Positions 115 through 42,685 of a DNA stretch of 42,685 nucleotides are shown here, piece by piece (the stretch's first letter is position 1; the number at the start of each line of letters is the position of its first letter). Source of the DNA: a virus. The stretch is taken from the IMG/VR virus record IMGVR_UViG_3300033153_001947, positions 1 through 42,685 of that record. One strand, written 5' to 3'. A model generated the notes under the pieces. That model was not told the DNA's origin, made no database searches, and worked only from the letters and a program-made list of their open reading frames with translations. Made by a program: the position numbers and the translations under genes.

Positions 115-390
115 AAGGTGTATACAAACAGAGCGAAGCTAGATGGCTCTGGACTAAAAGAATGGTTCATGAGCGAGATTGACATTGTAAACAATAGCAG
201 AACGGGAGGGATTAATCTTCTGGTTAAAGCTTCTTTCGCAACTAGAGATGCTATGGGAATGGGTACTAAAGCAGAGGCAGAGTCATGGATAAGAGAATTA
301 TCAAAAATGATATTTGATGAATATTGGCAAAAACACAACCTTGAGACAGAGGTTATGCCAGTGTTAAATAAACTATATGAAGGAGAATAA
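1..390 (+). CDS. PrimPol-type primase/helicase-like protein, C-terminal part (continues from 40661-42685)
   Basis: This frame is open from base 1 and is the direct continuation of the gene that starts at 40661 and runs off the right end. Joined across the 114-base overlap, the full protein is about 766 residues. This part begins with the Asp-His-Ser region of the third primase motif (HSCTNVGRLFF) and ends in a charged helical tail that finishes KLYEGE. No separate start codon is needed; a TTG at 25 is only an internal leucine. The gene ends two bases before the ERF gene, so the two are probably co-transcribed. Confidence 0.9.
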   Translation, partial: HSCTNVGRLFFNSPNSEYIYNQGATFKAHLFLEDSKTEKVYTNRAKLDGSGLKEWFMSEIDIVNNSRTGGINLLVKASFATRDAMGMGTKAEAESWIRELSKMIFDEYWQKHNLETEVMPVLNKLYEGE

Positions 391-391
391 G

Positions 392-805
392 ATGAGTATA
401 GAAAAGAAATTATTACAGTTTCAATCAGAGGTAGATGCAGTTAAGAAGGATGCTAAGAATCCATTTTTTAAATCAAACTATGTAGATATAAATAGTGTGT
501 TAAAAGCAATACAACCAAACCTTACTAGTTGTGGTATTAGTTATACACAATGTCCAGACATATTAGAAGATGGTACTGATGTCATTAGAACAGTGCTCTT
601 TGATGCCGAGAAGCCTGATAGTTGTTTAAGAGCAACTACTAAGTTAATCTTAACAAAACAAGACATGCAGCAGTATGGAGGTGCAGTGACTTATGCTCGA
701 AGAATAACTCTAATCAGTATGCTTGGATTAGAAGCAGAAGATGATGATGGAAACTCTGTATCTGGAAAAACTGCTGGGAAACCTAAAGAAAACTCTGGTT
801 GGTAG
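392..805 (+). CDS. erf: ERF-family single-strand annealing recombinase
   Basis: ERF proteins bind single-stranded DNA and anneal complementary strands during phage recombination and genome circularisation. The 137-residue protein has the typical ERF core: NPFFKSNYVDINSVL near residues 23-37, then QQYGGAVTYARR near 93-104 and LGLEAEDDDGN near 111-121, which closes the domain. The tail after it is short and polar. The start at 392 is preceded by AGGAG at 381-385 with a 6-base spacer; the upstream ATG at 377 would lie before this site. The neighbours are the primase, SSB and RusA genes, which together make a recombination/replication cassette. Confidence 0.88.
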   Translation: MSIEKKLLQFQSEVDAVKKDAKNPFFKSNYVDINSVLKAIQPNLTSCGISYTQCPDILEDGTDVIRTVLFDAEKPDSCLRATTKLILTKQDMQQYGGAVTYARRITLISMLGLEAEDDDGNSVSGKTAGKPKENSGW

Positions 806-830: not shown

Positions 831-872
831 GAGATTACAAGAAGTCACTTGCGAGAAAACAAAGGAATTAAA

Positions 873-1277
873 ATGGTAAAAGTTAAATCGAATCAATGTG
901 CGTTAAGTGGATATGTTGGAGGAATCTGGGATAAAGCTAGCAGTAGTTTTCAAGTTAAAAGAGGAGCTACTAAGAATGGCAAGAAGTATCAAATCTTTGA
1001 GATTAAAGTTTCTAGTAAAGATAAAGAAACTGGTAGTTACACAAATGGTAAAGGTATTAAAGTAATGCTATGGGGAGAAGTTCCTATTGAGGCTGGTCAA
1101 GAGATTGGTATTGTAGGTAAGTTCCAACCAGATAACTGGACTCCAAAAGATAGCGAGAAAGAAGTAAGAGGAAATATGTTTAATGCATTTGCTGATGATA
1201 TATTCACTCCTGATAGTTGGGATAGTAGCAACTCAGAACCCAAAGAGGAAGTTGCAGAAGATGAAATTCCTTGGTAG
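873..1277 (+). CDS. ssb: Single-stranded DNA-binding protein
   Basis: The protein is 134 residues. Its N-terminal 110 residues look like an OB-fold: alternating beta stretches, a basic strand near FQVKRGATKNGKKYQIFEIKV and a WGEVPIEAGQEIGIVGKF segment. It ends in an acidic tail closing DEIPW, which resembles the DDDIPF tail that bacterial SSB uses to recruit repair and replication partners. It would coat single-stranded DNA for the ERF annealase and the primase. The start at 873 was chosen because AAAGGA at 861-866 is correctly spaced; the ATG-less extension to 849 has no such site. Direct family membership is by eye only. Confidence 0.75.
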   Translation: MVKVKSNQCALSGYVGGIWDKASSSFQVKRGATKNGKKYQIFEIKVSSKDKETGSYTNGKGIKVMLWGEVPIEAGQEIGIVGKFQPDNWTPKDSEKEVRGNMFNAFADDIFTPDSWDSSNSEPKEEVAEDEIPW

Positions 1278-1560
1278 TCATTGCGATATAAAGTTAAAGC
1301 CTCCAAGAATAGCAAAGAAGTCTAAAAAGATATACAGAGACATCTTTGTTAGGAAGCTTAAGCACTTTAGCCATCTATATCAATTAGATGGTTTATATAT
1401 AGTATCTGTCCACCATACAAGAGATGTGTATGATTGGATAGATAGAAACATAGAAGATATACTTACAAGGAAATGGTTGGATGAAGATACAGTACCTAGA
1501 AACACCTCTTTATTTGAAGCGTGGCAAAAAGAAAGTCAAGAACTATTGGTTGAATCTTAA
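1261..1560 (+). CDS. Hypothetical protein, 99 aa
   Basis: The frame starts at the ATG at 1261, which overlaps the last 17 bases of ssb; GAGGAAG lies about 10 bases upstream. The product is basic in its first third (lysine- and arginine-rich, residues 14-35) and then contains a hydrophobic Tyr-Leu-Asp-Gly-Leu-Tyr segment and several tryptophans. I do not recognise a family. It also overlaps the RusA gene by 80 bases in another frame, which is long for this genome, so the true C-terminus or the RusA start may be shorter than given. Confidence 0.6.
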   Translation: MKFLGSHCDIKLKPPRIAKKSKKIYRDIFVRKLKHFSHLYQLDGLYIVSVHHTRDVYDWIDRNIEDILTRKWLDEDTVPRNTSLFEAWQKESQELLVES

Positions 1561-1876
1561 TAACTATCGTAACTGGAAGTTTCATCTAAGCAACTCTTTG
1601 AAGGTGCAGTTTAAAGATGAGTTGATTATTGACCATCTAAAGCCCTTTATAGGCAAAGTTAGAGTTACCTATACATTCTATTACCCAGACAACAGATTAA
1701 GAGATATAGACAACTCTCTGGCTGTTATAAGTAAGTTCACTTTAGATACATTAGTGGAAGCTAATATATTAGAAGATGATAACTACGAATATGTAGTAGA
1801 AGTACGAGGTAAACTAGGTGGAGTGGATAAAGATAGTCCAAGATGCGAAGTAGAGATAAAGGAAATAGATGAGTAA
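1481..1876 (+). CDS. rusA: RusA-like Holliday junction resolvase
   Basis: RusA enzymes cut four-way junctions symmetrically and resolve recombination or replication intermediates. The 131-residue protein shows the family layout. There is a short beta segment with LNNYRNW near 26-32, a strand VRVTYTFYYPD at 60-70, then RDIDN at 74-78 containing two acidic metal-binding residues (D75, D77). A helix through K85 follows, and an acidic pair D99-D100 sits in ILEDDNYEY. Length matches the family (about 120-140 residues). The start at 1481 is preceded by AAGGA with about 8-9 bases spacing. It belongs with ERF and SSB. Confidence 0.85.
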   Translation: MKIQYLETPLYLKRGKKKVKNYWLNLNNYRNWKFHLSNSLKVQFKDELIIDHLKPFIGKVRVTYTFYYPDNRLRDIDNSLAVISKFTLDTLVEANILEDDNYEYVVEVRGKLGGVDKDSPRCEVEIKEIDE

Positions 1877-27864: not shown

Positions 27865-27874
27865 CACTTAGTCC

Positions 27875-28837: not shown

Positions 28838-28854
28838 AACTAACCTAGTTAGTT
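28838..28854 (-). other. Stem-loop in the capsid gene leader
   Basis: AACTAAC and GTTAGTT form a perfect 7-bp stem with a 3-base loop, about 37 bases before the major capsid start. It is too far from the ribosome site to block it and probably acts on mRNA stability or processing. Confidence 0.5.
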
Positions 28855-28890
28855 GAAACAAAAATCATTCAAATCTTTAGGAATCAATAG

Positions 28891-28950: not shown

Positions 28951-28959
28951 TATATCATA
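28949..28959 (-). promoter_or_regulatory. Candidate extended -10 promoter for the major capsid gene
   Basis: The minus strand reads TATGATATACT, one of four copies of the motif TATGMTATACT. It is an extended -10 element (TGA before TATACT). A start would fall near 28942, about 140 bases before the capsid ATG. Confidence 0.5.
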
Positions 28960-28983
28960 AAAATAAATGCAATAGCAAATCCT

Positions 28984-29778: not shown

Positions 29779-29784
29779 AACTTA

Positions 29785-30267
29785 CTACTTCATCCCAAGA
29801 GGTTTTAATACAGTCTTATAATCAACTTCCTCTTCCATTGTAAGCTTCTTAGCAGCAGTACGAATATCATCTTCAGTAATACCATGTTTTTGTAGTAAAT
29901 GATTCTTTACATCAATACCACTTCTATCACCACGACCAATAGTAGAGATAGCTACTCTAAGCTCCATTGGGTCTAGTTTACCCTTCTTGCCATCTTTACG
30001 ACCTTGATATCTACCATTAGCCTCACTGTACTCATGATACTCTCTAGCTGTCATAATTATACATCCACCCATAGTATCGTCTTTAACTACATTGGATTCC
30101 TTAGCATACATACTAGCTGGAAACTCATCTTCAGTTACTTTATTGTCTTCTTCAAACTCAGCTTTCTTTACTAGAGCAGATACTTTCTGTCTAGTGATAC
30201 CCAACTCTTTACCAATCTCTGTGTCTGACTTACCAGACTCTCTCAACTTCAATATATCTTTTACCAC
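29785..30267 (-). CDS. Helix-turn-helix protein between portal and scaffold, 160 aa (GTG start)
   Basis: Residues 1-40 are a good resolvase-type helix-turn-helix (ILKLRESGKSDTEIGKELG, then ITRQKVSALVKKA). The middle has AREYHEYSEANGRYQGRKDGKKG, and the C-terminal part is helical (VKNHLLQKHGITEDDIRTAA). The GTG at 30267 is used because AGGA is 6 bases upstream and no ATG is available. A DNA-binding protein inside the head-assembly operon could be a late regulator or a packaging accessory. No family recognised for the C-terminal part. Confidence 0.75.
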   Translation of the reverse strand: MVKDILKLRESGKSDTEIGKELGITRQKVSALVKKAEFEEDNKVTEDEFPASMYAKESNVVKDDTMGGCIIMTAREYHEYSEANGRYQGRKDGKKGKLDPMELRVAISTIGRGDRSGIDVKNHLLQKHGITEDDIRTAAKKLTMEEEVDYKTVLKPLGMK

Positions 30268-30371
30268 TACTTATCCTTCTTTGGTTGTTTCTTCTTTGTT
30301 TGTTTAGGCTGTTTAGCCAACTCAGATGCCTTATGAACTGTGATTGTCTCACTGTACTTTCTGTCTTTCAT
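30267..30371 (-). CDS. Small very basic protein, 34 aa
   Basis: The ATG at 30371 has an excellent GAGGAGG site. The C-terminal half is a run of Lys, Gln and Pro (KQPKQTKKKQPKKDK). Its stop overlaps the next GTG by one base. It may be a small DNA-condensing or capsid-interior peptide. No family recognised. Confidence 0.55.
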   Translation of the reverse strand: MKDRKYSETITVHKASELAKQPKQTKKKQPKKDK

Positions 30372-30416
30372 GTCTATATCCTCCTCTCTAAAGATGTACC
30401 AAAATTTAAACAATAA

Positions 30417-31901
30417 TTATCCTTGAGTAGGTATTGCAGCATCAGCCATGTTCTGACCAGCTTTAGCCATACCAGACTCATTCATTTGTTGTTGAGCTAA
30501 TGCTTCTTGGTTCTGCTTCTGTAGCTTAGCATACTCTTCGTCACTCATAAGAATATCATCAGTAGGTACATTATAGAATCCAGCATACTTAATAGCTAGT
30601 GAACCTTTCTTAAACCTATCAGCAAATCCTAACTGTCCAGCTCTAGTCATTAGTTCATCTAACTTCTGTGCTTCTACTGCTCTACCTAGTGCATCTAGTC
30701 CAGTCACTATATCAACTTGGATAGTCTTTAGCTTAAGCCCTAAGTCTTGCATAGCCCACTTAACCATACGCTTAATAAGCCTATTTGATACTACACTATA
30801 CATACTAGCTAAGGCATTCTCTAACTCAGCAGTATCACCTTTAATCTCTTCTTGTGTAACTCTCTCAGCTTGTCTTCTGGTAACCAATAAGAAAGCATCA
30901 GATAAGTCACGTTTAACTTCTTCCTTCTCAGCTTGTGCTACTTGATAGTCATATGCTTTACCATGTTGATAACTAGTAACATCATCACCTCTACCTTGTA
31001 TGATAGCACCATTGTCAGCCTTACGAACATCTCTAAGTCTAGTCCTACCAGTTCTCTCATCTACAAAAGTAATATTCTTAGAACTAACTAATCCACCTTT
31101 AGTAAGTATCTTACTCCAAGTCTCATACTCTTCAAATCCACCTTTATAGCTAGAAGCATATGGTCTATGGTATTCATCACCTTGAGTCCATAACCAACCT
31201 TGATAAGCAAATGGTCTATTCTCGTCAGTAAACGTTCTCTCATCACTAACATACTCACCATCTATCTCTTGCTTTAATACCCACTTACCTTCTTCTACTT
31301 CCTCTAACTGAGTATATAATTCATACTCTTCTTTCTCATCAGCTACAGTAATACCTTCAGGTAACTTAGTAAGCTTCTCTTTAACACAGAGCTTATACTC
31401 TTCACCCTTATCATCAAGACTGACAACAAAGTTTCTAAGCGTATGAACCTTATACCCTTTCTTTGGTATCTTCTCCAACACAACAGAACTGACAACAATC
31501 AGATGTTCTAGCACAGTAAAGATAGTGTTCCTTGTATTAGCAGCTTCTAGTCTATCATTAATCTTGTTTTGACCATTGGTTATATCCTTCTGTATCTCAG
31601 ATGTAGCATCTCCACTACCACCAGTTACATTGCCCATAAGGTCAGCATTAGGAGTTAATCTAAAGGCACTAGCATTAGGTGGAAACAAAGTCATACCTAT
31701 CTTAGACGATAAATTATTAACACATCTAGCACCAAAGGCTTGACCATAACTATCAGGTTGAGTTGAACTACCAGTCCATGACTCATCTCTCATCAATGCT
31801 GGTATAGTCATCTTAGCTAATGCTTCAGCTTCATCTTCATAAGGCTTTCTATCCTTAGCAGCTTTACTATAATACTCACTTGGTAATAATTCTTCATCCA
31901 T
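30417..31901 (-). CDS. Portal (head-tail connector) protein, T7 gp8-like
   Basis: The dodecameric portal is the DNA gate. The 494-residue protein has ALMRDESWTGSSTQPDSYGQ, VNNLSSKIGMTLFPPNASAFRL (the conserved podovirus portal segment), and an IKGDTAELENALASMYSVVS helix leading to the stem, and it ends with a Gln-rich tail. Length is close to T7 gp8 (536). The ATG at 31901 was chosen over 31922 because MDEELLPSEYY begins the family-like sequence and AGGA lies 8 bases upstream. Confidence 0.92.
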   Translation of the reverse strand: MDEELLPSEYYSKAAKDRKPYEDEAEALAKMTIPALMRDESWTGSSTQPDSYGQAFGARCVNNLSSKIGMTLFPPNASAFRLTPNADLMGNVTGGSGDATSEIQKDITNGQNKINDRLEAANTRNTIFTVLEHLIVVSSVVLEKIPKKGYKVHTLRNFVVSLDDKGEEYKLCVKEKLTKLPEGITVADEKEEYELYTQLEEVEEGKWVLKQEIDGEYVSDERTFTDENRPFAYQGWLWTQGDEYHRPYASSYKGGFEEYETWSKILTKGGLVSSKNITFVDERTGRTRLRDVRKADNGAIIQGRGDDVTSYQHGKAYDYQVAQAEKEEVKRDLSDAFLLVTRRQAERVTQEEIKGDTAELENALASMYSVVSNRLIKRMVKWAMQDLGLKLKTIQVDIVTGLDALGRAVEAQKLDELMTRAGQLGFADRFKKGSLAIKYAGFYNVPTDDILMSDEEYAKLQKQNQEALAQQQMNESGMAKAGQNMADAAIPTQG

Positions 31902-32097
31902 CTTCTTGTTCCTCATCATCATCTTCAGTATCAGTTAAATACATAACCATAGCATCTATCAACTCTACTTTACCAGCTATCTTACCTCTGAGGAAAGCAT
32001 CACCATCTTCAAGCAACATCTTATCTGGGTTATTATCTTTACACCAATCTATAAGCTCTTCAATGCTTATATTGATATACATTGGATGGTCTCTCAT
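31894..32097 (-). CDS. Hypothetical acidic protein before the portal, 67 aa
   Basis: The N-terminal part has IEELIDWCKDNNPDKMLLEDGD and a helical KVELIDAMVMYL. The C-terminal 15 residues are almost all Asp/Glu. ATGA coupling joins it to the preceding gene, and its stop overlaps the portal start. Function unknown. Confidence 0.7.
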   Translation of the reverse strand: MRDHPMYINISIEELIDWCKDNNPDKMLLEDGDAFLRGKIAGKVELIDAMVMYLTDTEDDDEEQEDG

Positions 32098-32405
32098 ATC
32101 TTAAATCCTAATGAACTACCGCTACCAGTTGTACCCAATGCAGATGTCTTAGGAACCAAGAAGTCAGATACATTACCTAACTCATCACCTTCTGTGTCTG
32201 CTCCATACTGTATACCAGTAAAGGTCTCTTGGTCTGGTGCTGTCTCTTTGGCTATTCTGTCAGCTTCTTTCTTCTTGGCTTCTTCTGCTGCTTTGAGTTC
32301 AGCTTGTTGTTCGTCTGCTGCTTTCTCTTGTTCCTTAGCTGTATAAATACTAGTTCCAGCACCTATTGCTGCTGCTGCGATTACCGCTGCTGTTACTGCT
32401 GCCAT
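32094..32405 (-). CDS. Small virion-type protein with N-terminal membrane segment, 103 aa (T7 gp7.3/6.7-like position)
   Basis: Residues 2-18 are a hydrophobic Ala/Ile/Gly-rich helix (AAVTAAVIAAAAIGAG). A charged coiled coil (KEQEKAADEQQAELKAAEEAKK) and a polar Gly/Ser tail ending SSLGFKI follow. T7 gp7.3 and gp6.7, small virion proteins encoded before the portal, also end in a Gly-Ser-rich segment closing in GINI-like residues. The analogy rests on position and tail only. AAAGGATTAAGC precedes the ATG. Confidence 0.55.
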   Translation of the reverse strand: MAAVTAAVIAAAAIGAGTSIYTAKEQEKAADEQQAELKAAEEAKKKEADRIAKETAPDQETFTGIQYGADTEGDELGNVSDFLVPKTSALGTTGSGSSLGFKI

Positions 32406-32407
32406 GC

Positions 32408-32767
32408 TTAATCCTTTATGTTAAATGAAATAAATGAAGTATCTCCATCTCTCTTTATAATATTCATATTGTACCTTGACAACCTATCCAATAGGTAATC
32501 AGAGTTACCGTTAAGCATAGAGTATATTGGTACTCCAGACTTAATCAACTTTATAATCTTCTTCATAACCCACATATCAGCTTTGTTTTTAGTTCCAGCC
32601 AATAATATCCATCCATTTATATCTTTGTTCCAGATAGGACAATAGAAGCTGTCACCTTTAATCTCAACATTATTAGCCAATAACTCTTCAAGCATATCAT
32701 CCATACTACTAGTAACCACATATGTATCTCCATAGTAGTCTAGTATCTCTTTAAGCTTATTTATCAT
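32408..32767 (-). CDS. First late gene, hypothetical protein, 119 aa
   Basis: The mixed alpha/beta protein has LLANNVEIKGDSFYCPIW, NGWILLAGTKNK and a helical KKIIKLIKSGVPIYSML. A GNAT-like or phage-specific fold cannot be decided by eye. The ATG at 32767 lies 7 bases after a TATACT element with no ribosome site, so the mRNA may be leaderless. It is the promoter-proximal gene of the whole late block. Confidence 0.7.
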   Translation of the reverse strand: MINKLKEILDYYGDTYVVTSSMDDMLEELLANNVEIKGDSFYCPIWNKDINGWILLAGTKNKADMWVMKKIIKLIKSGVPIYSMLNGNSDYLLDRLSRYNMNIIKRDGDTSFISFNIKD

Positions 32768-32773
32768 GGTAAA

Positions 32774-32784
32774 AGTATAGCATA
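32774..32784 (-). promoter_or_regulatory. Late-block promoter, extended -10
   Basis: The minus strand reads TATGCTATACT, identical to the site at 33741-33751. A start site about 7 bases downstream of the hexamer coincides with the ATG at 32767. No convincing -35 is present. Confidence 0.6.
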
Positions 32785-32790
32785 ACTAAA

Positions 32791-32801
32791 TATGATACAA
32801 T
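32791..32801 (+). promoter_or_regulatory. Early-block promoter, extended -10
   Basis: TATGATACAAT has TG, one base, then TACAAT. It is almost the same as the site at 34702-34712. A start near 32808 would leave a leader of about 20 bases with AAGGG before the ATG at 32829. It stands back-to-back with the late promoter, 7 bases apart. Confidence 0.5.
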
Positions 32802-32828
32802 TATGCTTACACTATATAAGGGTTTAAT

Positions 32829-33386
32829 ATGGAAAGCTATAAAGATTATGGACATTTTGATTATCCAACTCCATTTAATAAAGAACTAGTAGAATTAGGA
32901 CTTGTACCATACAGAACTAACTCACCACTAAAGCGTAAAATAGACTATATCTTCAGACATATTCACAATCCACACAGACAAGACTTCATAGACATCTCTA
33001 CATCAGGTGATAGAAAGTTAGTAGAAGATATGGCAACTAGAGCAGTAGCATTAGTAAGACACTTCCTACTATACCCTCAACAATATGGACATAAACTAGA
33101 GAATATACACCTACAAATAATAGTTCGTATGTGGAGACAGATGTTCAGACAAAGAGTTATGCAGAATAAACCAACAGATATATATTATCCAGCAAGAATG
33201 AAGTTAGTATCAATAGAGAATGGTTTACTAGAAGAACTCATAAGGACAGTAGAGAGTAAAGACTATATACAACATAACGATGATATGGTTAAGAAGAGAT
33301 ATGACAAAGATGGTAAGCAAGTACCACTTAGAGGAAGAGTTGGATACAGTGAGAAGAACTTAGACTATTACGATAGCTTAGTGTAA
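32829..33386 (+). CDS. First early gene, hypothetical protein, 185 aa
   Basis: The basic protein is rich in His, Arg and Tyr. It has a helical core (RKLVEDMATRAVALVRHFLLYPQQYG, written in parts here) and IVRMWRQMFRQRVMQNK. It is the first plus-strand gene after the divergent promoters, a place where T7-like phages encode host-takeover proteins. No family recognised. Its last 19 bases overlap a small convergent gene. Confidence 0.75.
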   Translation: MESYKDYGHFDYPTPFNKELVELGLVPYRTNSPLKRKIDYIFRHIHNPHRQDFIDISTSGDRKLVEDMATRAVALVRHFLLYPQQYGHKLENIHLQIIVRMWRQMFRQRVMQNKPTDIYYPARMKLVSIENGLLEELIRTVESKDYIQHNDDMVKKRYDKDGKQVPLRGRVGYSEKNLDYYDSLV

Positions 33387-33520
33387 CCAGTGTTATTACT
33401 AGGGTTTCTTCTCTGAGAGTACTTAGTATAATCAGCTTGTGTATACCCTTCTATAATCTCAAACTCCATCTTACGAACATTAACCTTGTACATCATTGTA
33501 CCTGATACTAACCACATCAT
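33368..33520 (-). CDS. Small hypothetical protein, 50 aa
   Basis: The frame starts at overlapping ATGs (33520, 33517) just at the stop of the preceding minus gene (ATGATG over TGA). AAGGA precedes. The peptide has MWLVSGTMMYKVNVRKMEFEI and a polar C-terminus with several Asn and Tyr. No family recognised. Coupling is the main support. Confidence 0.5.
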   Translation of the reverse strand: MMWLVSGTMMYKVNVRKMEFEIIEGYTQADYTKYSQRRNPSNNTGYTKLS

Positions 33521-33723
33521 ACATCCTTTATCAACACAATCTTATTAATAGGTTCTATGATACCACTTAACTTCAACATAACATCTTCATTCAGCAACAC
33601 TATAGTATTACCTTCATTCTCTTGTACATCTACAACACTATACATAGTACAATCATCCAATAAGTATATTCTATCTAATGGTTCTATTGCTTTAGCTGGG
33701 AAGGTAGTTAGTTTTAACATCAT
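33517..33723 (-). CDS. Hypothetical protein, 68 aa
   Basis: The beta-rich protein (LTTFPAKAIEPLDRIYLLDD, VVDVQENEGNTIVLLNED, then GIIEPINKIVLI) looks like a small barrel with an internal repeat of I-E-P-[L/I]-[D/N]-[R/K]-I. The ATG at 33723 has AGGA 6 bases upstream. It is one of two minus genes inside the plus block and has its own promoter 18 bases upstream. Confidence 0.65.
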   Translation of the reverse strand: MMLKLTTFPAKAIEPLDRIYLLDDCTMYSVVDVQENEGNTIVLLNEDVMLKLSGIIEPINKIVLIKDV

Positions 33724-33740
33724 AGTAGTTCCTTTAGTAG

Positions 33741-33751
33741 AGTATAGCATA
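33741..33751 (-). promoter_or_regulatory. Extended -10 promoter for the two small minus genes
   Basis: The minus strand reads TATGCTATACT, identical in all 11 bases to the late-block promoter. Transcription would begin near 33734, 11 bases before the ATG at 33723. Confidence 0.6.
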
Positions 33752-33798
33752 GGAATCTTATAACCTATACTATATCGAGAAGGAGTCGTAGGAGGTAG

Positions 33799-33816
33799 TT
33801 GTTCTTAATTGAACAA
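33799..33816. other. Inverted repeat overlapping a predicted start site
   Basis: TTGTTC and GAACAA are perfect 6-bp arms separated by TTAATT. The expected start site of the promoter at 33821-33831 falls inside it, so it may be an operator. Confidence 0.45.
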
Positions 33817-33820
33817 TAGT

Positions 33821-33831
33821 AGTATATCATA
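33821..33831 (-). promoter_or_regulatory. Extended -10 promoter-like site, minus strand
   Basis: The minus strand reads TATGATATACT, identical to the site before the major capsid gene. The nearest downstream gene is at 33723, beyond a second promoter, so this may be an alternative start or an origin-linked transcript. Confidence 0.45.
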
Positions 33832-33976
33832 ATTATGACCACTTGTCATTGGGGTTGTGGAATAGGTTGGTGTAAGGTTTGGTTAAGGTTTCTTGTTTTC
33901 AATCAAAGTATTTAGAGATGGGTATCTACCCTCATAGACAATTCATTTTACCCCATAGCCTCCTATAAAACAAGAG

Positions 33977-33985
33977 TTATTCACA
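33977..33985 (+). other. DnaA box 1 (TTATTCACA)
   Basis: A perfect match to the bacterial consensus TTATnCACA. It is the first of four boxes in the same orientation. Confidence 0.7.
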
Positions 33986-33998
33986 TCAATATACCTAC

Positions 33999-34007
33999 TT
34001 ATTCACA
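33999..34007 (+). other. DnaA box 2 (TTATTCACA)
   Basis: Identical to box 1 and 22 bases downstream of it, i.e. two helical turns on the same DNA face. Confidence 0.7.
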
Positions 34008-34088
34008 TTATTACTGGTACACTTTGGGCTTGAATGAAGGGCTTGGAAGTACTTAGTTGTAGTGGTTTGAAAGGATTGAGGTTAAAAG

Positions 34089-34097
34089 TTATTCACA
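34089..34097 (+). other. DnaA box 3 (TTATTCACA)
   Basis: Identical to boxes 1 and 2, and starts the second pair. Confidence 0.7.
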
Positions 34098-34099
34098 TG

Positions 34100-34108
34100 T
34101 TATTCACA
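34100..34108 (+). other. DnaA box 4 (TTATTCACA)
   Basis: Begins 11 bases after box 3, one helical turn. The AT-rich tract begins about 30 bases downstream. Confidence 0.7.
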
Positions 34109-34431
34109 TAGTAGTTTAGTAAATGTGAACATCCTCTACTAAACCTCACACAATAATACCCCAAAAACCTAAAACTAAACTGTATAATAATTAATCACTC
34201 AATAGCCTATATATTATACACTACTAAATTCTTACTATTTACTACTACTTTATCACTCAATATCATACCAACTAAAAAGAATTATAACATTCGCTACAGC
34301 CTCGTAACTATGGTATCTGTAGAGCATTTATACTACTACATTTCAATCTTATTGCTTGCTTGTTTACTTGTTTCAACTATAGTTTTTGTATCGGTTCATT
34401 ACGAACTAGATTCAACTTAAGAGGTAACAAG

Positions 34432-34632
34432 ATGAAATCAATTACTAAAATAGAAATCACTGAACAAATGTTCAAAGCAGTAGTTACACTACATACTGAA
34501 TGTTATACAGTAGATGAAAAAGAACTATACAATGAGTATTACTACTATGTTAATTATATGAGAGTATCAAAGAGAGATAATCACTTACTAGGTGGTGTAG
34601 CTACTTACTATATGCAAGACATGAACGCATAA
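34432..34632 (+). CDS. Hypothetical protein, 66 aa
   Basis: The ATG at 34432 follows AGAGG with 7 bases; upstream in-frame sequence is in the non-coding region and not used. The product is Tyr-rich in its centre (ELYNEYYYYVNYM) and otherwise mixed. No family recognised. A TTCG-loop hairpin follows the stop. Confidence 0.65.
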   Translation: MKSITKIEITEQMFKAVVTLHTECYTVDEKELYNEYYYYVNYMRVSKRDNHLLGGVATYYMQDMNA

Positions 34633-34641
34633 CATTTATAG

Positions 34642-34659
34642 GGTGATATTCGTATCATC
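34642..34659 (+). terminator. Possible terminator hairpin
   Basis: GGTGATA pairs with TATCATC (one G-T pair) around a TTCG tetraloop, a very stable loop type. It lies 10 bases after a stop and before the next promoter. The following TTATTA is only a weak U-tract. Confidence 0.45.
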
Positions 34660-34701
34660 TTATTAAGTGTTGTTACCATTCATTAGGTAGCACTACTTTT
34701 T

Positions 34702-34712
34702 TATGGTACAAT
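34702..34712 (+). promoter_or_regulatory. Extended -10 promoter for the HNH gene
   Basis: TATGGTACAAT differs from the first early promoter by one base. A start near 34719 gives a short leader with AAAGG before the ATG at 34740. A separate promoter suits a mobile endonuclease gene. Confidence 0.5.
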
Positions 34713-34739
34713 TGTATTACTAAAATCAAAAGGAAAACA

Positions 34740-35483
34740 ATGATAACACAAGCAGAGCTTAAAACCATAGTAAGCTATGATAGCAGCACAGGAATATTTA
34801 CAAAGCTAAAGACAAACAAAACAATGGGAACAAAACAGAGTAATGGAAGATACTCCTGTATGATAAATGGAGTTAGGTATCCCATGGCTAGACTAGCTTA
34901 TATATACATGTTAGATATAGCACCAAATAACATTAAGTTACTGGATGGGACTTTCTCTAATATGGCATGGTCAAATCTAACCATAGAAAAGTTTATTAAG
35001 GATGCTATATCTCAGTCTATACTAAAAAGAATATATCTATATGATGTTGAAAGTGGACATTTTACAAAAAGAACTACGGGGAAGATAGCAGGAACAACCA
35101 TTCAGAGAGGTTATGTTCATATAGGGGTAGCAGGGAAAAAGTATTTAGCTCATAGGCTAGTGTTCTTGTATATGACAGGTGAATTTCCAAGTAGTGACAT
35201 AGACCACATAAACCATATAACCTCTGATAATAGATGGAGCAATTTAAGGGAAGTTACTAAGTCTGACAATAGCAGAAATGCTAGTCTTAGCAAAAACAAC
35301 AACTCAGGAACAACGGGAGTTATTTGGCAGAAAGACAGAAGCAAGTGGACAGCCAACATAAGAGTACATGGGAAAAGAATTCATCTAGGTTGTTTCCTTG
35401 ATATTAATGATGCTGTCAAAGCTAGAAAAGAAGCAGAGGTTAAATATAACTTCCATAAAAATCACGGATTAAGCAAAGATTAA
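34740..35483 (+). CDS. HNH endonuclease with AP2 DNA-binding domain
   Basis: Free-standing HNH-AP2 proteins are homing endonucleases that cut related genomes and spread by repair. The 247-residue protein has, in its centre, the HNH core: AHRLVFLYMTGEFPSSDIDHIN (written with its key His and Asp residues), then DNRWSNLREVT. The AP2 part near 185-240 reads GTTGVIWQKDRSKWTANIRV, HLGCFLDINDAVKARKEAE. Residues 6-81 look like a degenerate copy of 95-178 that keeps AxGTxxxxGY..., RLAYIYM and WSNL but has lost the DHIN motif. It has its own promoter and lies between hairpins, as expected for a mobile gene. Confidence 0.88.
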   Translation: MITQAELKTIVSYDSSTGIFTKLKTNKTMGTKQSNGRYSCMINGVRYPMARLAYIYMLDIAPNNIKLLDGTFSNMAWSNLTIEKFIKDAISQSILKRIYLYDVESGHFTKRTTGKIAGTTIQRGYVHIGVAGKKYLAHRLVFLYMTGEFPSSDIDHINHITSDNRWSNLREVTKSDNSRNASLSKNNNSGTTGVIWQKDRSKWTANIRVHGKRIHLGCFLDINDAVKARKEAEVKYNFHKNHGLSKD

Positions 35484-35501
35484 TATTCCATTAGGAATTC
35501 G

Positions 35502-35538
35502 TTGTCTTTCTTATCTTATACTACGGACAAGAAGACAA
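35502..35538 (+). terminator. Imperfect hairpin after the HNH gene
   Basis: TTGTCTT (35502-35508) pairs with AAGACAA (35532-35538), and after one bulged T, CTT pairs with AAG. It follows the HNH stop by about 20 bases and may end or trim that transcript. Confidence 0.4.
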
Positions 35539-35586
35539 ACTATTAAGTATTAACATATACTTTACAAACCAACTAAGGAAAACAAG

Positions 35587-35862
35587 ATGAAAGACTTATA
35601 TACAACAGTAAGCGAAGAAGGTTACGAGGATACAACAGTAGGTGAAGATATTATAGAAACTTTTTATAATGGTAACTTTACAGACGGAATAAAGCAACTG
35701 ATAAAGATTAATGTTACACCTAGAGAATTTGGAGATTATATAAACCAACTAAGTGAAGACTTAGGCTATGAGAACTCTTTAGAATTTGCTAGTGGTCACT
35801 TTGATTATGATTTTTGGATAAGTATAGGTCAAGAATATTATACTATAGCAAGGAGCTTATAA
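35587..35862 (+). CDS. Hypothetical acidic protein, 91 aa
   Basis: AAGGAAAACAAG precedes the ATG. The acidic protein contains VTPREFGDYINQLSEDLGYE and a C-terminal aromatic-rich YDFWISIGQEYYTIA. The overall look recalls small phage anti-restriction (ArdA-like) acidic proteins in charge only; no motif supports this. A weak TATACT element lies at 35556-35561. Confidence 0.65.
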   Translation: MKDLYTTVSEEGYEDTTVGEDIIETFYNGNFTDGIKQLIKINVTPREFGDYINQLSEDLGYENSLEFASGHFDYDFWISIGQEYYTIARSL

Positions 35863-35863
35863 A

Positions 35864-35986
35864 ATGATAAAACTAATAATATTAACAAGTGCAATAGTTA
35901 TATGTATAGCTATTATAGCTATTATAGTTGTCAGTATATGGCGTGAAGTTGATGTATTTGCTAACCTAGCAGATTCGGTGTTTTAA
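35864..35986 (+). CDS. Small membrane protein, 40 aa
   Basis: One uninterrupted hydrophobic span (residues 4-25, LIILTSAIVICIAIIAIIVV) is followed by a short charged tail. AAGGAGCTTATAAA precedes the ATG. It could be an early membrane effector such as a superinfection-exclusion peptide, but no evidence identifies one. Confidence 0.6.
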   Translation: MIKLIILTSAIVICIAIIAIIVVSIWREVDVFANLADSVF

Positions 35987-35996
35987 GGGGTATAAG

Positions 35997-36179
35997 ATGG
36001 AAGAAATGACAAGCTATGATGTAGCATATTTACAGTTTAAAGAAGAAACAAGTGGTGCAACCAAAGAGAAGTTTGATAAGTTAATAGACGAGCATGGTTG
36101 GGATTATGTAGTTTTTTATGAGAATAGATATCACGAAACAATGGCAGGAGATGATTGTTATGACCCAGAATGTTACTGA
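35997..36179 (+). CDS. Hypothetical acidic protein, 60 aa
   Basis: AAGGGGTATAAG precedes the ATG. The acidic peptide has a helical first half (YDVAYLQFKEETSGATKEKF) and ends with an unusual Cys/Asp/Tyr cluster (DDCYDPECY). The 3' end overlaps the next gene by 20 bases. Confidence 0.6.
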   Translation: MEEMTSYDVAYLQFKEETSGATKEKFDKLIDEHGWDYVVFYENRYHETMAGDDCYDPECY

Positions 36180-36396
36180 ATATAGTCCTGACGTGCAAAC
36201 CCTACTAGACAAAATAGGACACTTTTCAAAGGTAGAAGGTTATTATCCTTCTTATGTAATATGTGACATAGATACAAGATATGAACTGTTAAAATCTGAA
36301 TTATTTGAGGTTTTAGACAGTGGAGCTTATTCTATTTTTAGATTAAAGATATGCGTAATTGATGGTTTAACAAAGCATGAGCTAGAAGTCAAATAA
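36160..36396 (+). CDS. Hypothetical protein, 78 aa
   Basis: The ATG at 36160 was chosen because GGAG at 36146-36149 suits it better than the earlier in-frame ATGs. The product has VQTLLDKIGHFSKVEGYYPSY and a C-terminal beta part (IFRLKICVIDGLT). No family recognised. Confidence 0.6.
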   Translation: MTQNVTEYSPDVQTLLDKIGHFSKVEGYYPSYVICDIDTRYELLKSELFEVLDSGAYSIFRLKICVIDGLTKHELEVK

Positions 36397-36688
36397 CAAT
36401 ATGCATCATAAGAATCAATTCTATAGGGCTATAAGCCCTCAATAATGTTTATCTATGGATTAGTATACCTAGTCTATATATAAGCCTTAAACAGCTTGAG
36501 TTCATTATATATAGATATACATACAATATGTTTATATAGTATTATTATTGTTAAAAAGTCTTATATAGATTACAGGGTTATATATAAGCACAACAATACC
36601 ACTAAGTAACCAAGTAATACTTATGTATTAACTTTTATTAAGCACTCAGCTAACAAGCAAAATCATAGTGTTTATAAAGGGTAATAAA
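36397..36688. other. Non-coding AT-rich region with a hairpin and an 11-base repeat
   Basis: About 290 bases with no gene. A GC-rich hairpin AGGGCT/AGCCCT with a 3-base loop (36425-36439) may be a terminator. TATATATAAGC occurs twice (36475-36485 and 36579-36589). The rest is alternating A/T that may include a promoter for the next genes, but I cannot pick one with confidence. Confidence 0.5.
36425..36439 (+). terminator. Candidate terminator hairpin
   Basis: AGGGCT pairs perfectly with AGCCCT around ATA. This GC-rich stem stands out in an AT-rich gap 28 bases after a stop codon. The U-tract is poor. Confidence 0.45.
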
Positions 36689-37087
36689 ATGAATATAGAT
36701 GAACTAACATTAGGGCAAATCAAAGAGATAAGATGCTTATTAGGAGCTAATAACAATGATGCAGTAGTGAGTAATAACAACTCATTAAACAATGATATTA
36801 TAGGTCGTAAATGTATTATCAGAACATATAGTGCTGGAGTATGGTTCGGAACTGTATTAGAAAAGACTAAAAACGAGTGTGTTATAGGTGATGCTAGAAG
36901 AATGTATAAATGGGTAACAACTGATAAAGGTATCACTTTAAGTGAGGTTTCTTTAACTGGGGTTACAAATGAAAGTAAGATTCAAGCACCAGTTAGTAAG
37001 GTTTGGTTACAACAAATAGAACTTATACCGTGTACTGATATAGCTATTAAATCACTAGAAAGCAAAGCTAATTATGTCTATTCTTAA
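36689..37087 (+). CDS. DUF6948-like protein
   Basis: The 132-residue protein shows RKCIIRTYSAGVWFGTVLEK, ARRMYKWVTTDKGITLSEV, and a C-terminal WLQQIELIPCTDIAIKS. These segments are characteristic of a widespread phage family of unknown function that I know as DUF6948. The first 45 residues hold a variable Asn-rich linker. AAGGG stands 7 bases before the ATG at 36689. It overlaps the next, low-complexity gene by 14 bases. Confidence 0.8.
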   Translation: MNIDELTLGQIKEIRCLLGANNNDAVVSNNNSLNNDIIGRKCIIRTYSAGVWFGTVLEKTKNECVIGDARRMYKWVTTDKGITLSEVSLTGVTNESKIQAPVSKVWLQQIELIPCTDIAIKSLESKANYVYS

Positions 37088-37310
37088 TCCTTCAGAAGAA
37101 GATAGACCCTCTTCGTCGGGTAATGGTAATGGTAATGGTAATGGTAATGGTAATGGTGATGGTGATGGTTATGGTAATGGTAATGGTAATGGTGATGGTT
37201 ATGGTAATGGTGATGATTATGGTAATGGTGATGGTGATGGTTATGGTAATGGTAATGGTGATGGTTATGGTAATGGTGATGGTGATGGTGATGATTATGG
37301 TAATGGTTGA
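37074..37310 (+). CDS. Gly-Asn/Gly-Asp/Gly-Tyr low-complexity protein, 78 aa
   Basis: After 15 ordinary residues (SILNPSEEDRPSSS) the protein is a run of Gly-Asn, Gly-Asp and Gly-Tyr dipeptides to the stop. The gene is coupled to the DUF6948 gene. I recall similar Gly-rich low-complexity proteins next to this family in other phages. Such sequences are disordered and can promote phase separation or hydration shells; no function is known here. Confidence 0.65.
   Translation: MSILNPSEEDRPSSSGNGNGNGNGNGNGDGDGYGNGNGNGDGYGNGDDYGNGDGDGYGNGNGDGYGNGDGDGDDYGNG
37119..37307 (+). repeat. Hexanucleotide microsatellite (GGTAAT/GGTGAT/GGTTAT)
   Basis: About 31 tandem 6-base units, almost all starting GGT or GAT and ending AT. 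Because the unit is a multiple of three, gain or loss keeps the frame. The tract is a likely length-variable site. Confidence 0.95.
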
Positions 37311-37378
37311 GAGCTTAAGTGCTCTAGCCTTAACTTCTATTTATGTAGCTGATAGGCTATATATAGGAGGTTATAAAA

Positions 37379-37525
37379 TTGAATATTAAAGATAGGATAG
37401 ACAACCATAACAAGTTGGTTACTGATGTAGCTAGGTTAGATGTAGAATTACATAAAAAGATGATGGTAGATAACCAGAAGATAAGAGATAGAGAGTTAAT
37501 TAAATATAAGATGAAAGGTAAATAA
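37379..37525 (+). CDS. Small hypothetical protein, 48 aa (TTG start)
   Basis: A perfect AGGAGG (37365-37370) stands 8 bases before a TTG that opens this frame; there is no ATG nearby. The highly charged, helical peptide contains DRIDNHNKLVTDVARLD and ends in lysines. It ends in TAATG overlapping the next gene. Confidence 0.6.
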   Translation: MNIKDRIDNHNKLVTDVARLDVELHKKMMVDNQKIRDRELIKYKMKGK

Positions 37526-37671
37526 TGAGTAGTACATATAATAGAGTATTTAACTTTAACTCTAAAGAACCTAAAGGACATTGTGAAGCAGTAAGACAAA
37601 GAAGTATTAAAGCTTTACAGATAGCAAATATAGAAATACAAAGAGGATTGAAAGGATTAAATAATGTTTGA
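37525..37671 (+). CDS. Small hypothetical basic protein, 48 aa
   Basis: The ATG overlaps the previous stop. The C-terminal half is a basic amphipathic helix (AVRQRSIKALQIANIEIQR). No family recognised. Confidence 0.6.
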   Translation: MSSTYNRVFNFNSKEPKGHCEAVRQRSIKALQIANIEIQRGLKGLNNV

Positions 37672-37738
37672 ACCATACGAAGACACTATGTCAGATGATA
37701 AGAGTATATACAAGAAATTGTATGAGATGAGTCGATAA
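37664..37738 (+). CDS. Tiny hypothetical peptide, 24 aa
   Basis: AAAGGATTAAATA provides a good ribosome site for the ATG at 37664, inside the end of the previous gene. The acidic peptide starts MFEPYEDTMSDD. It may be a real microprotein or a chance frame. Confidence 0.4.
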   Translation: MFEPYEDTMSDDKSIYKKLYEMSR

Positions 37739-37775
37739 ACCAACAGCTAGAACTATTGGAATATCTAAGAATTTG

Positions 37776-37807
37776 TAATATAACAAATACTAAATCAAGT
37801 TATATTA
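37776..37807. other. Perfect 9-bp inverted repeat
   Basis: TAATATAAC (37776-37784) and GTTATATTA (37799-37807) flank 14 bases. It lies in a 98-base gap before a small leader frame and an HTH-like gene, so it is a candidate operator. Confidence 0.5.
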
Positions 37808-37836
37808 TATCTGAACCAACATAAGGGAATGATAAA

Positions 37837-37881
37837 ATGAGTATAGAGATGACAAGAAAGGTAATAGCATATGAAAGATAA
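37837..37881 (+). CDS. 14-codon leader frame before the HTH-like gene
   Basis: The short frame MSIEMTRKVIAYER has an AAGGG upstream and ends 10 bases inside the next gene. Its first four codons encode the same MSIE as the start of the ERF gene. It may couple translation to the gene at 37871; alternatively it is a decayed remnant. Confidence 0.35.
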   Translation: MSIEMTRKVIAYER

Positions 37882-38119
37882 AGATATATACAGTTCTAGC
37901 AGTCTAATACACTACTTAAGAGTAAAGCATAACTTAGACATAGTAACACTATCTAGCATACTTAACGAGCCAATAACAGCTATATACAAGATAAGAGATG
38001 GTTCAAGAGTTTTAGGTCGAGATAACTACGAAGAGTTATTGCTACTGTATCCAGAGTTACCACTATGTGATTTTGAAGGTACATATATAAACCCAAATTG
38101 GAAAGAAGGAATAAAATGA
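37871..38119 (+). CDS. Putative XRE-like helix-turn-helix protein, 82 aa
   Basis: Residues 9-55 read as helices: SSLIHYLRVKHNLDIV, TLSSILNEPITAIYKIRDG and a following YEELLLLYPEL. This is the order of a small Cro/XRE-like domain, though no perfect signature is seen. AAAGG precedes the ATG. A 9-bp inverted repeat lies upstream. It might regulate the surrounding early genes. Confidence 0.55.
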   Translation: MKDKDIYSSSSLIHYLRVKHNLDIVTLSSILNEPITAIYKIRDGSRVLGRDNYEELLLLYPELPLCDFEGTYINPNWKEGIK

Positions 38120-38421: not shown

Positions 38422-38573
38422 CTAAATTAGAAGTAGCAGAGAGAGATTTAACTAGAATTAGAGAAACGCTAGAACATATAGCAAGTGAAGAAGTATTGAA
38501 CCTTATAGACTTACTAGAACTTAGAATAGAAGAAATAAGATTATTAGAGGAGTTGAATTATGGAGATAGGTAA
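38418..38573 (+). CDS. Small hypothetical coiled-coil protein, 51 aa
   Basis: ATGA overlap joins it to the previous gene. The peptide is a leucine- and glutamate-rich helix (LIDLLELRIEEIRLLEEL). Its end overlaps the nuclease start by 14 bases, and its last codons contain that gene's ribosome site. Confidence 0.6.
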   Translation: MTKLEVAERDLTRIRETLEHIASEEVLNLIDLLELRIEEIRLLEELNYGDR

Positions 38574-39336
38574 TTATGTACCAGTGGGCAAGGATAATTG
38601 TTTTAATGTGAGTCCATCAAGTTTACATAGTTGGTTTGAGAATAAAGCTAAATGGGGAAAAGACTATATAAAGAAAGAAGGTTCTTTTGATGGTAATACA
38701 AACACTGTATTTGGTAGTATCTGTCATGGTATATTTGAAGCATATTCAACCAACCAGTTAGTGAGTGAAGCTGATGTAATGCAATATCTAGCTAAATACG
38801 AAACCAATAGTAATGTAGATGCTTGGTTTATCCAAGATAACTGGAGTGATGCTCAAAGAGAGATTGTTAAGTTCATGGGAACTAGACCTCAAGTGGATAA
38901 GATTGAGAGCCAAGTAGTGTATGAGGTCGAAAAGGGTTACACTATTGGAGGTACTTATGATGCTCTTACTGGTAAGACGCTAACAGATTATAAGACTTGT
39001 AGTGCTAAACCAAGTAAGATTAAGAAGGAGCATGTGATACAGTTAGCTACTTATGCAATAGCCTTAGAGCTGAACGGTCAACCAATAGATACACTTGAAA
39101 TAGTATATATAGTTAAGCCAAATATCAAAGGAAAGATAAGCGAGAAGAGTGGGAAGGTTATAGGCATCAAGCAGACAGTCATACAGAGCCTACAAGAGCC
39201 GTTCACTGATGAGTTAAGGCAAATGGTCAAAGGAGAGTTAAAACACCTCATAGAAACCGTCAAGTTATACGAGGAAAATGAAGATTTATATCCATATCTG
39301 TTTCCAAGCAACATTCTCAGCTTCATGCATGAGTAA
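38560..39336 (+). CDS. PD-(D/E)XK nuclease of the RecB/Cas4-like type
   Basis: RecB-family exonuclease domains process DNA ends. The 258-residue protein has the family motifs: G52-S-I-C-H56 in VFGSICHGIFEAY, D134 in IGGTYDALTG, D143-Y-K145 in LTDYKT, and Q161-L-x-x-Y165 in QLATYAIAL. There are no Cas4-type iron-sulphur cysteines. As a stand-alone phage enzyme it may supply single strands for the ERF annealase. AGGAG lies 7 bases before the ATG. Confidence 0.85.
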   Translation: MEIGNYVPVGKDNCFNVSPSSLHSWFENKAKWGKDYIKKEGSFDGNTNTVFGSICHGIFEAYSTNQLVSEADVMQYLAKYETNSNVDAWFIQDNWSDAQREIVKFMGTRPQVDKIESQVVYEVEKGYTIGGTYDALTGKTLTDYKTCSAKPSKIKKEHVIQLATYAIALELNGQPIDTLEIVYIVKPNIKGKISEKSGKVIGIKQTVIQSLQEPFTDELRQMVKGELKHLIETVKLYEENEDLYPYLFPSNILSFMHE

Positions 39337-39339
39337 CCA

Positions 39340-40397: not shown

Positions 40398-40668
40398 GCA
40401 AGTTGTAATATTGGAGGATAGTGGAATAATCAAAGTAGCAGATGTAATTAGAATACTAAGAGCATCAATAATGATAGATCCATGTTCGATAGTGGGAGTA
40501 GGTAACCATGAGGGTATGTTGACAGTTGTGTTTGGGGATGAAGCCCATATAAGAACTTATGGTAAGCAAATAGCAAGACTGTGGTCAGCTCTTGATAACG
40601 ATTTTATAGTTCCAGCATATACAGATAAATATGGGAATATAATCGAGAAGGAATGGATTTATGCCTAA
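40354..40668 (+). CDS. Hypothetical protein, 104 aa
   Basis: GGAGAG precedes the ATG at 40354. The protein has a beta strand (KQVVILEDSGIIKV), a helix (ADVIRILRASIMI) and a hydrophobic centre (IVGVGNHEGMLTVVFGDEA). No family recognised. Its last 8 bases overlap the start of the primase gene, so the two are translationally coupled. Confidence 0.6.
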   Translation: MRNKMNLVSILSTSKQVVILEDSGIIKVADVIRILRASIMIDPCSIVGVGNHEGMLTVVFGDEAHIRTYGKQIARLWSALDNDFIVPAYTDKYGNIIEKEWIYA

Positions 40669-42685
40669 GCATTACTTCAAACTCAATGACAAGCAGATAG
40701 ACCTGAAGAAAGTTAATCCATTGGTTCTTGAGATACTAAATAAAGTAGTGATACCAAGAAGCAGAAACTCTTACAGCGTAGACTTCGCCATACAAGCAAT
40801 TCATACATCATTGGCTCACTTTGCAACAACAGCAAGACTTAAATATATACCATCTGGTGGAAACAAAAAATCAACTAAGATGACAACATACTTTGCTATG
40901 AGTTTCTTGTCTAGTGGTAAAGGTAAAGACTTTATAACAGACTTGATTGAGGAGGAGTTATTTGAGGTATTGACTAATGGCTTCGACAAAGTTGTAGCCA
41001 CAAAAGCAATTAACTACAATAGGAGAACCAAGGGTATGATTGAGGATTGGTTGCTTAATGGTGAGACTAACGAGGGAATACCATATGGTAGACCAGAGTA
41101 TAATATGGATATTAAAAATAAGTTTATGCCCTCTAAAATAGAAGACATTGGGCTTAGATTTGGACAAGCTACTCCAGAGGGCTTAGCTTATGCTAGAAAC
41201 AGAATTAAGATGATTGACATGGGCAGTCCGGCTCTGAAGATACCAGAGTTTTCAAGTGCCTTATCTAGTCCAGATATAAAAGGATTGTTCACCAGTCTTA
41301 TAGAGCTTTGGGAGAACGGCAACGTAAGTGCTAAGACAACAAAGGATAAGCTGCTTCCTAACTGTAAGAATGTTCCTATATTGTTTTATGCTTATACAGA
41401 CCCAAATAAGATATTGAACGATGTTAAGAAACAGAAGAGTTTAGTTGATGAGTTTAGTAGTGGTATGGGTAGAAGAACTTTTGTTGTATATCCTGAAGAG
41501 GAAGACTTTGTTAAGAAAACTGGGAAAGCTATATCTGAGATACCAGAAGAAGACATAGAAGAAATAACTCATCCGGTAATGAAAAATATAGCTAAGTTTT
41601 TTAACTTTAAAAGAGTTAGTGGTATGGCTACAGAAGATGATAAGTGGGAGCAACCTATTCAGTATTTTTCTATGTATGCCCAAGACTACATGGAAGAGAT
41701 TAATAAAATGTGTTCAGACGAAGAGGAGCGACTTAGAGGTGAGCTTACAGATGGCGAGCTAGCTAACATTGTATCTCTTGGAGCTAAGATTGAGAAACTA
41801 GCTAGTCTATATGCTTTTATAGATGGTAGAGAAGAGATAGATATAGAGGATTGTAGATACGCTACATATTGGTCTACATACACATCTAAGTATCTAGGAA
41901 AGATTAGTAGGATATTAACAGCACCAGAAAGGCTATTTAATATGATGGCTAGAAAGAAATCTTGGGTCAGTGGATTTGAAATTGAACAAGCTGGGATATT
42001 TCCTAACTCATTTGATTTCAATAAATCACTAGATAATACATTGCAAAATCTGAGCCAGTTTTGCTCTATGCAGAATTATGACCTTATAGTCAGTCAGAAA
42101 AATGGAGGTTCTGTAATAAAAGTAAGACAGATACCATTGGTAGACCCAGACAAACTGGTTACATCAAGCATGGTTGGGAATCACGATATCATAAAGAAAG
42201 CAAAAATCGGATGGAAGAAGTCTACTTTTAAATTTTCCAATCTGCATAAATTCATTTGTAATGAGAAGCAATCTGCAATTTCTGCTTGTGAGTTCAAAGG
42301 AGGAAGGAGATTAGACAATCAGACTACTGGGAAGATACAATTTATTGCTCTGGACTTTGATGATGGTATTACTTGGGAAGATGGATTGGCTAGATTTAGT
42401 GGATATACATTCTTTGCCTACCAAACCAGAAATCACCAAAAAGAAAAGAATGAAAAAACTTGTGATAGGTTCAGGGTAATATTGCTGCTAGAGAGAGAGT
42501 TGGTTGTAGATGAAGTCAAATATAGTCGTATGTATAAAAAAATACTATCTGTAATAGCTCCTGAAGCTGACCATAGCTGTACTAATGTTGGTAGATTGTT
42601 TTTTAATAGTCCTAACTCAGAGTACATATACAACCAAGGTGCTACGTTTAAGGCTCATTTATTCCTAGAGGATAGCAAAACAGAG
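40661..42685 (+). CDS. DUF3987-like plus archaeo-eukaryotic primase fusion (N-terminal 675 residues; continues at 1-390)
   Basis: The first ~430 residues have a DUF3987-like layout, an ATPase/helicase-like phage and plasmid domain. They carry a relaxed P-loop SSGKGKD at 84-90 and VPILFYAYTDPNKILND leading to DEFSSGMGRRTFVVYPEE at 238-280. The last part (about 515-680) is a primase of the AEP/PrimPol type: D565 and D567 in FIALDFDDG, H592 in YQTRNH, a basic DRFRVILL strand, and D637 in PEADHSC. AEP enzymes make primers and sometimes extend them. This is the only replicative enzyme seen in the genome. The gene is cut by the window end and is whole in the circle. Confidence 0.82.
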   Translation, partial: MPKHYFKLNDKQIDLKKVNPLVLEILNKVVIPRSRNSYSVDFAIQAIHTSLAHFATTARLKYIPSGGNKKSTKMTTYFAMSFLSSGKGKDFITDLIEEELFEVLTNGFDKVVATKAINYNRRTKGMIEDWLLNGETNEGIPYGRPEYNMDIKNKFMPSKIEDIGLRFGQATPEGLAYARNRIKMIDMGSPALKIPEFSSALSSPDIKGLFTSLIELWENGNVSAKTTKDKLLPNCKNVPILFYAYTDPNKILNDVKKQKSLVDEFSSGMGRRTFVVYPEEEDFVKKTGKAISEIPEEDIEEITHPVMKNIAKFFNFKRVSGMATEDDKWEQPIQYFSMYAQDYMEEINKMCSDEEERLRGELTDGELANIVSLGAKIEKLASLYAFIDGREEIDIEDCRYATYWSTYTSKYLGKISRILTAPERLFNMMARKKSWVSGFEIEQAGIFPNSFDFNKSLDNTLQNLSQFCSMQNYDLIVSQKNGGSVIKVRQIPLVDPDKLVTSSMVGNHDIIKKAKIGWKKSTFKFSNLHKFICNEKQSAISACEFKGGRRLDNQTTGKIQFIALDFDDGITWEDGLARFSGYTFFAYQTRNHQKEKNEKTCDRFRVILLLERELVVDEVKYSRMYKKILSVIAPEADHSCTNVGRLFFNSPNSEYIYNQGATFKAHLFLEDSKTE
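42572..42685. repeat. Terminal direct repeat, right copy
   Basis: Identical to bases 1-114. The two copies define the circle junction. Confidence 0.95.

Follow-up and report, generated by a model that had tools for sequence, protein, structure and literature searches.

We found that the gap between the divergent late and early gene blocks of a T7-like phage genome harbors four perfect copies of TTATTCACA, which are in all likelihood DnaA boxes, and that these copies are identical to boxes at the replication origins of Campylobacterota. They occupy a single intergenic site and recur in some relatives of the phage. The architecture of the cluster, its single location, the divergent gap, the AT-rich tract and the identity with host origin boxes favor the reading that 33.95-34.30 kb serves as a platform to which the DnaA of a Campylobacterota host binds, and is most likely the phage replication origin; judged from the sequence, we hold this reading with moderate confidence.

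The window (the whole stretch of DNA analyzed, 42,685 nucleotides) contained exactly four TTATTCACA words, all on the + strand, at 33977, 33999, 34089 and 34100, just as the original prediction had stated; the rest of the 42.6-kb genome has no further copy. The relaxed word TTATNCACA added one isolated site in the whole window, at 541. Box 1 (33977..33985, AG-TTATTCACA-TCA) shows an extended match with host boxes, and box 2 (33999..34007, AC-TTATTCACA-TTA) follows 22 bp past it. Box 3 (34089..34097, AG-TTATTCACA-TG) opens a head-to-tail pair that box 4 (34100..34108, TG-TTATTCACA-TAG) closes at 11 bp, so that both claimed spacings were confirmed. Including one neighboring base at each end, all four conform to (G/C)TTATTCACAT. 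Four copies were reached by 3 of 100 shuffles; the raw count alone is thus weak evidence. In contrast, a second-order Markov model predicts 0.57 boxes genome-wide and puts the probability of four boxes on one strand within 132 bp at approximately 4e-11. The other 9-mers with four non-overlapping copies per 150 bp were the overlapping TATTCACAT and, apart from it, only words from a coding low-complexity repeat at ~37.1-37.3 kb. Bacterial genomes matched this Gly/Asn/Asp-rich repeat (window 37123-37310) most strongly at the DNA level, but these matches are meaningless.

The gap itself contains no credible gene, in line with the original prediction: the - strand ORF ends at 33750, and the + strand ORF is listed from 34360, yet its first ATG lies only at 34432. 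The AT content reaches 71-76% in 100-bp windows at 34101-34300, as compared to 65% for the genome. Thus, the AT-rich tract said to follow the boxes is real, but calling it "very AT-rich" was an overstatement. The part at 34151..34300 (74-76% AT) is a candidate unwinding element. Within it lie a degenerate box-like word, TTATACACT (34214..34222, + strand), which is a weak candidate for a low-affinity site, and a DnaA-trio-like run, TTACTACTACTT (34239..34250, + strand), analogous to CTACTACTACTAC of host oriC2. On the + strand of the genome, TACTACTAC occurs only at 34240 and 34331. The trio-like run is located ~130 bp from box 4, while in host oriC2 loci CTACTACTACTAC is close to the end box; in the window, the last canonical box has no clear DnaA-trio immediately after it, and the run was not seen in the box-bearing relatives. 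Three further + strand elements are conserved among relatives: block A, GGGTATCTACCC...TTTTACCCCATAGCC (33910..33962), common to relatives with and without boxes; block B, CTCACACAATAATA (34145..34158; CTCACACATGATAATA in relatives); and block C, TTCGCTACAGC (34285..34300).

The cumulative GC-skew minimum lies at ~34 kb, and a skew switch at this place had been put forward as possible support for an origin. However, early and late genes hardly differ in sense-strand skew (0.235 and 0.183, respectively; 0.181 and 0.210 at third positions). The switch is therefore fully explained by divergent transcription, and the minimum is lost as evidence; the comparison of sense-strand skew between early and late genes revealed no replication-linked switch independent of gene direction.

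The link to Campylobacterota emerged from a scan of prokaryote genomes with TTATTCACATNTTATTCACAT, which returned 24 loci. Ten of them contained the 22-mer of the phage pair, GTTATTCACATGTTATTCACAT, without mismatch, and all 10 belonged to Campylobacterota (Sulfurovum, Campylobacteraceae, Nitratiruptor, Helicobacter salomonis, and unclassified Epsilonproteobacteria). Most of the GTTATTCACATGTTATTCACAT loci have additional boxes flanking a dnaA Walker-A motif on one side or on both, and a bipartite box arrangement around dnaA is known for this class (PMC5043019). In one Sulfurovum genome, 10 of 14 copies of AGTTATTCACAT were on the dnaA contig at oriC; some box copies in host genomes lie away from oriC. 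In a less biased comparison, positions 20001-40000 of the window were aligned by BLAST with 397 Campylobacterota genomes; the box pair supplied several of the best matches, the Gly/Asn repeat aside (28/28 bp in G401, 26/26 in G007, and 26/26 in G004). Two arrays stood out among the loci collected. A Campylobacteraceae metagenome-assembled genome has 14 TTATTCACA boxes in exact 21-bp steps adjoining its oriC (L021:1612-1893), and a Helicobacter salomonis contig has four boxes in 11-bp steps, with no dnaA motif in the fetched 8 kb (L016:709-750).

The agreement extends beyond the 9-mer. Position -1 is G or C in 33/33 phage-family and 94/100 host boxes, and position +9 is T in 32/33 and 96/100, respectively, with the reservation that some loci were picked by a pattern fixing part of these bases, which does not apply to the window, L047 and L141. 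The commonest same-strand spacing is 11 bp in phage-family and host boxes alike. Published Epsilonproteobacterial boxes have a TTCAC core with an invariant T at the fifth base (PMC5043019), and the phage cluster has both features. The resemblance to Campylobacterota-type boxes, proposed from the fifth base, is thereby strengthened, as the core, the flanking bases and the 11-bp pairing all agree with Campylobacterota oriC. Most simply, phage and host boxes would be bound by one and the same protein, the DnaA of Campylobacterota, and the sequence support for binding of host DnaA to this stretch is strong.

It is the boxes that point to a campylobacterotan host. The comparison of positions 20001-40000 with the 397 Campylobacterota genomes gave 16 short matches, none of them beside CRISPR-like repeats. 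No close prophage link was found: the connector profile matched 2 of the 397 genomes, at the wide connector-family level only.

The ends of the record, 1-114 and 42572-42685, are identical (a 114-bp direct overlap), which fits a circular map of 42,571 bp. A gene for a 766-aa primase-helicase-like protein (phrog_2135, E 1.5e-35; 40661..42571 and on to ~390 on the circular map, + strand) is split by the record ends; because it crosses the join, the record is circular or permuted. The protein had no significant match among solved structures. Late genes run leftwards at 6.5-32.8 kb and encode T7-like structural proteins, including the connector (phrog_449), capsid (phrog_267), terminase (phrog_38), and internal virion protein (phrog_342). 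Early genes run rightwards from 34.4 kb over the record ends to 6.4 kb. Besides the primase-helicase-like protein, they encode on the + strand an Erf-type annealing protein (377..805), a weak SSB-like protein (849..1277; E 0.01, under the curated cut-off), a RusA-like resolvase (1481..1876), and a PD-(D/E)XK exonuclease (38560..39336). A small conserved + strand gene at 32829..33386, nicknamed TerS-like for convenience, forms the left border of the region and served as a synteny anchor. An HNH endonuclease gene (window 34740-35483) lies beside the gap, and its homologue is located elsewhere in the relative G405.

Profiles of three window proteins recovered ~19 other lineages of the phage family; single-protein scans of viral contigs gave no usable relatives, while alignments succeeded. 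Six lineages including the window (the others being L006, L007/L048, L009/L062, L047, and L141) have a cluster of 4-8 boxes at the corresponding position, next to the homologue of 32829-33386. L006, L007 and L009 were first met via the box pattern and then recovered by protein search alone. Conservation of the cluster, which the original prediction had suggested looking for, is therefore genuine but patchy: about 14 of 20 lineages have no boxes at the site, among them the closest relative by connector, L059 (73%), which indicates that the family does not need them. In the near-identical L057 and L058, the same site, ~0.57-0.70 kb past the TerS-like gene, is occupied by about eleven head-to-tail 9-bp copies around CAAATGTTC. 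Blocks A, B and C flank the variable part. Because many members share them, with and without boxes, they suggest that different repeat elements were inserted into a shared control region.

The boxes had also been rationalized by the lack of a phage DNA polymerase, which would make recruitment of host DnaA sensible. Family-A DNA polymerase (PF00476) was indeed absent from the window and from 11 related records, several of which are fragments, and the polymerase of relatives (phrog_1252) has no homologue in the window genome. However, this argument failed among the relatives. G001, a full record with boxes, encodes its own DNA polymerase, D5-like primase, helicase, and Gp2.5-like SSB; G406, without boxes, lacks all four and has the primase type of the window. 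Since G001 has both boxes and polymerase and G406 has neither, boxes do not track with polymerase absence. G405, G407 and G408 have the polymerase and no boxes. By eye, two ORFs at G406:38043-40747 resemble both ribonucleotide reductase subunits.

Viral contigs that do not belong to the phage family also contain similar pairs; several have four to eight boxes, and the fetched stretches of these unrelated contigs contained no dnaA motif. In one 24.8-kb viral record with a terminase-like gene (G003; L005/L011), the same box cluster appears twice, 14,738 bp apart, which makes it probable that the record wraps around a circular element more than once. A search of 50,697 named phages yielded just 17 records with weak, partial matches to the box pair (61% of the query), most of them Gordonia or Staphylococcus phages. 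The best plasmid match was a 395-kb Sulfurovum mangrovi replicon (92% over 25 bp), with no annotated replication gene nearby.

From these features we infer DnaA binding, unwinding, origin activity and the host. The two head-to-tail pairs would be the loading sites of host DnaA, which would oligomerize rightwards from the boxes, melt the AT-rich tract at 34.15-34.30 kb and recruit the host helicase. Synthesis would then be continued by host Pol III together with the primase-helicase, SSB-like, Erf, exonuclease, and RusA proteins of the phage. Most of the probability that the origin reading leaves is shared by transcription control, titration, and accessory use with an unseen initiator.

The first of these, which we regard as unlikely yet deserving of weight, is that the boxes bind host DnaA as a switch between the divergent early and late promoters, or couple phage expression to host DnaA-ATP, with replication starting elsewhere or by recombination. 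The site is a divergent region upstream of both gene blocks, DnaA is known to act as a transcription factor (PMC8203912), the boxes are dispensable in relatives, and the Erf, RusA and exonuclease proteins would permit recombination-dependent replication. However, two box pairs, phased at 11 and 22 bp and adjoining an AT-rich tract, look more like an origin than a single operator, and the density of promoter-like matches is not clearly above that of shuffles (11 versus 7.6, sd 2.6).

It is distinctly improbable that a phage-encoded initiator starts replication at the gap, through blocks A-C, with the DnaA boxes as accessories in the manner of P1 or RK2. That blocks A-C are common to members with and without boxes, and that L057/L058 carry their 9-bp CAAATGTTC-type array at the same site, would fit such a scheme. 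Against it, no Rep match was found among the phage proteins searched and no recognizable initiator gene adjoins the gap, nor was a second iteron-like repeat family found in the gap of the window. A 165-aa protein (39900-40397), considered as a possible initiator, has no family match and an uninformative structure model (pLDDT 36.7).

We give little credence to titration, in which the boxes of many phage copies would soak up DnaA in a datA-like manner and halt host initiation. High-affinity clusters on a multicopy genome would act in this way, plasmid-borne boxes titrate DnaA in E. coli (PMC5835720), and clusters are present in unrelated viral contigs; however, four boxes per genome are a modest number, and a decoy could sit anywhere, whereas these occupy a fixed position in an inter-module gap by AT-rich DNA. 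Last, the notion that the boxes are functionless chance words in AT-rich DNA is hardly credible, as the shuffles that reach the raw count are outweighed by the tight clustering, the boxes at the same site in relatives, and the flanking bases agreeing with host boxes, which together contradict it.

Returning to the origin reading, we tentatively extend it to the family: T7-like Campylobacterota phages may swap the origin recognition part as a cassette at one fixed site (DnaA boxes, 9-bp iterons, or neither), independently of having their own polymerase, and in box-bearing members host DnaA alone might start the replication of a probably lytic phage. If so, the region would be a compact viral counterpart to the unusual oriC of Campylobacterota that could aid the study of DnaA loading off the chromosome, and T7-like phages would be able to trade a self-contained start mechanism for that of the host. 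The 22-bp box pair may also help to assign hosts to Campylobacterota viruses, few of which are cultured.

Compared with known systems, the phage shares connector, capsid, tail, terminase, and internal virion proteins with T7-like podoviruses (T7, Pelagibacter phage HTVC019P, and podophage Lau218), but it has neither a T7-type family-A DNA polymerase (PF00476) nor the polymerases seen in its relatives. T7 replication starts at the phage's own RNA-polymerase promoter, not at DnaA boxes. Phage P1 oriR and RK2 are plasmid-type origins with DnaA boxes and iterons; like them, the phage is an extrachromosomal replicon with host DnaA boxes adjoining AT-rich DNA, but it has no iteron array in the gap and, by protein family searches, no recognized Rep gene beside the boxes. 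The bipartite oriC of Campylobacterota, as described for Helicobacter pylori, Sulfurimonas denitrificans, Arcobacter butzleri, and Wolinella succinogenes (PMC5043019, PMC8235120), differs in adjoining dnaA and dnaN (ruvC-dnaA-dnaN), with two clusters around dnaA and a CTA-repeat trio straight after a box, of which the phage region has no clear counterpart at that place. The phage region is carried by a virus, has one cluster in a gap between phage gene blocks with no dnaA or dnaN beside it, and no DnaA match was found among the searched phage proteins. It nevertheless shares the TTCAC-core boxes with T at the fifth base and, with the Campylobacterota loci compared here, the flanking G...T, the 11-bp head-to-tail pairs, and an AT-rich tract on one side. 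Phage origins predicted in the style of Ori-Finder, for example that of Pseudomonas phage PseuGes_254 (PMC11512268), likewise combine AT-rich DNA with matches to the DnaA box; in the present phage, the boxes are perfect, host-specific up to their flanks, and compared across relatives.
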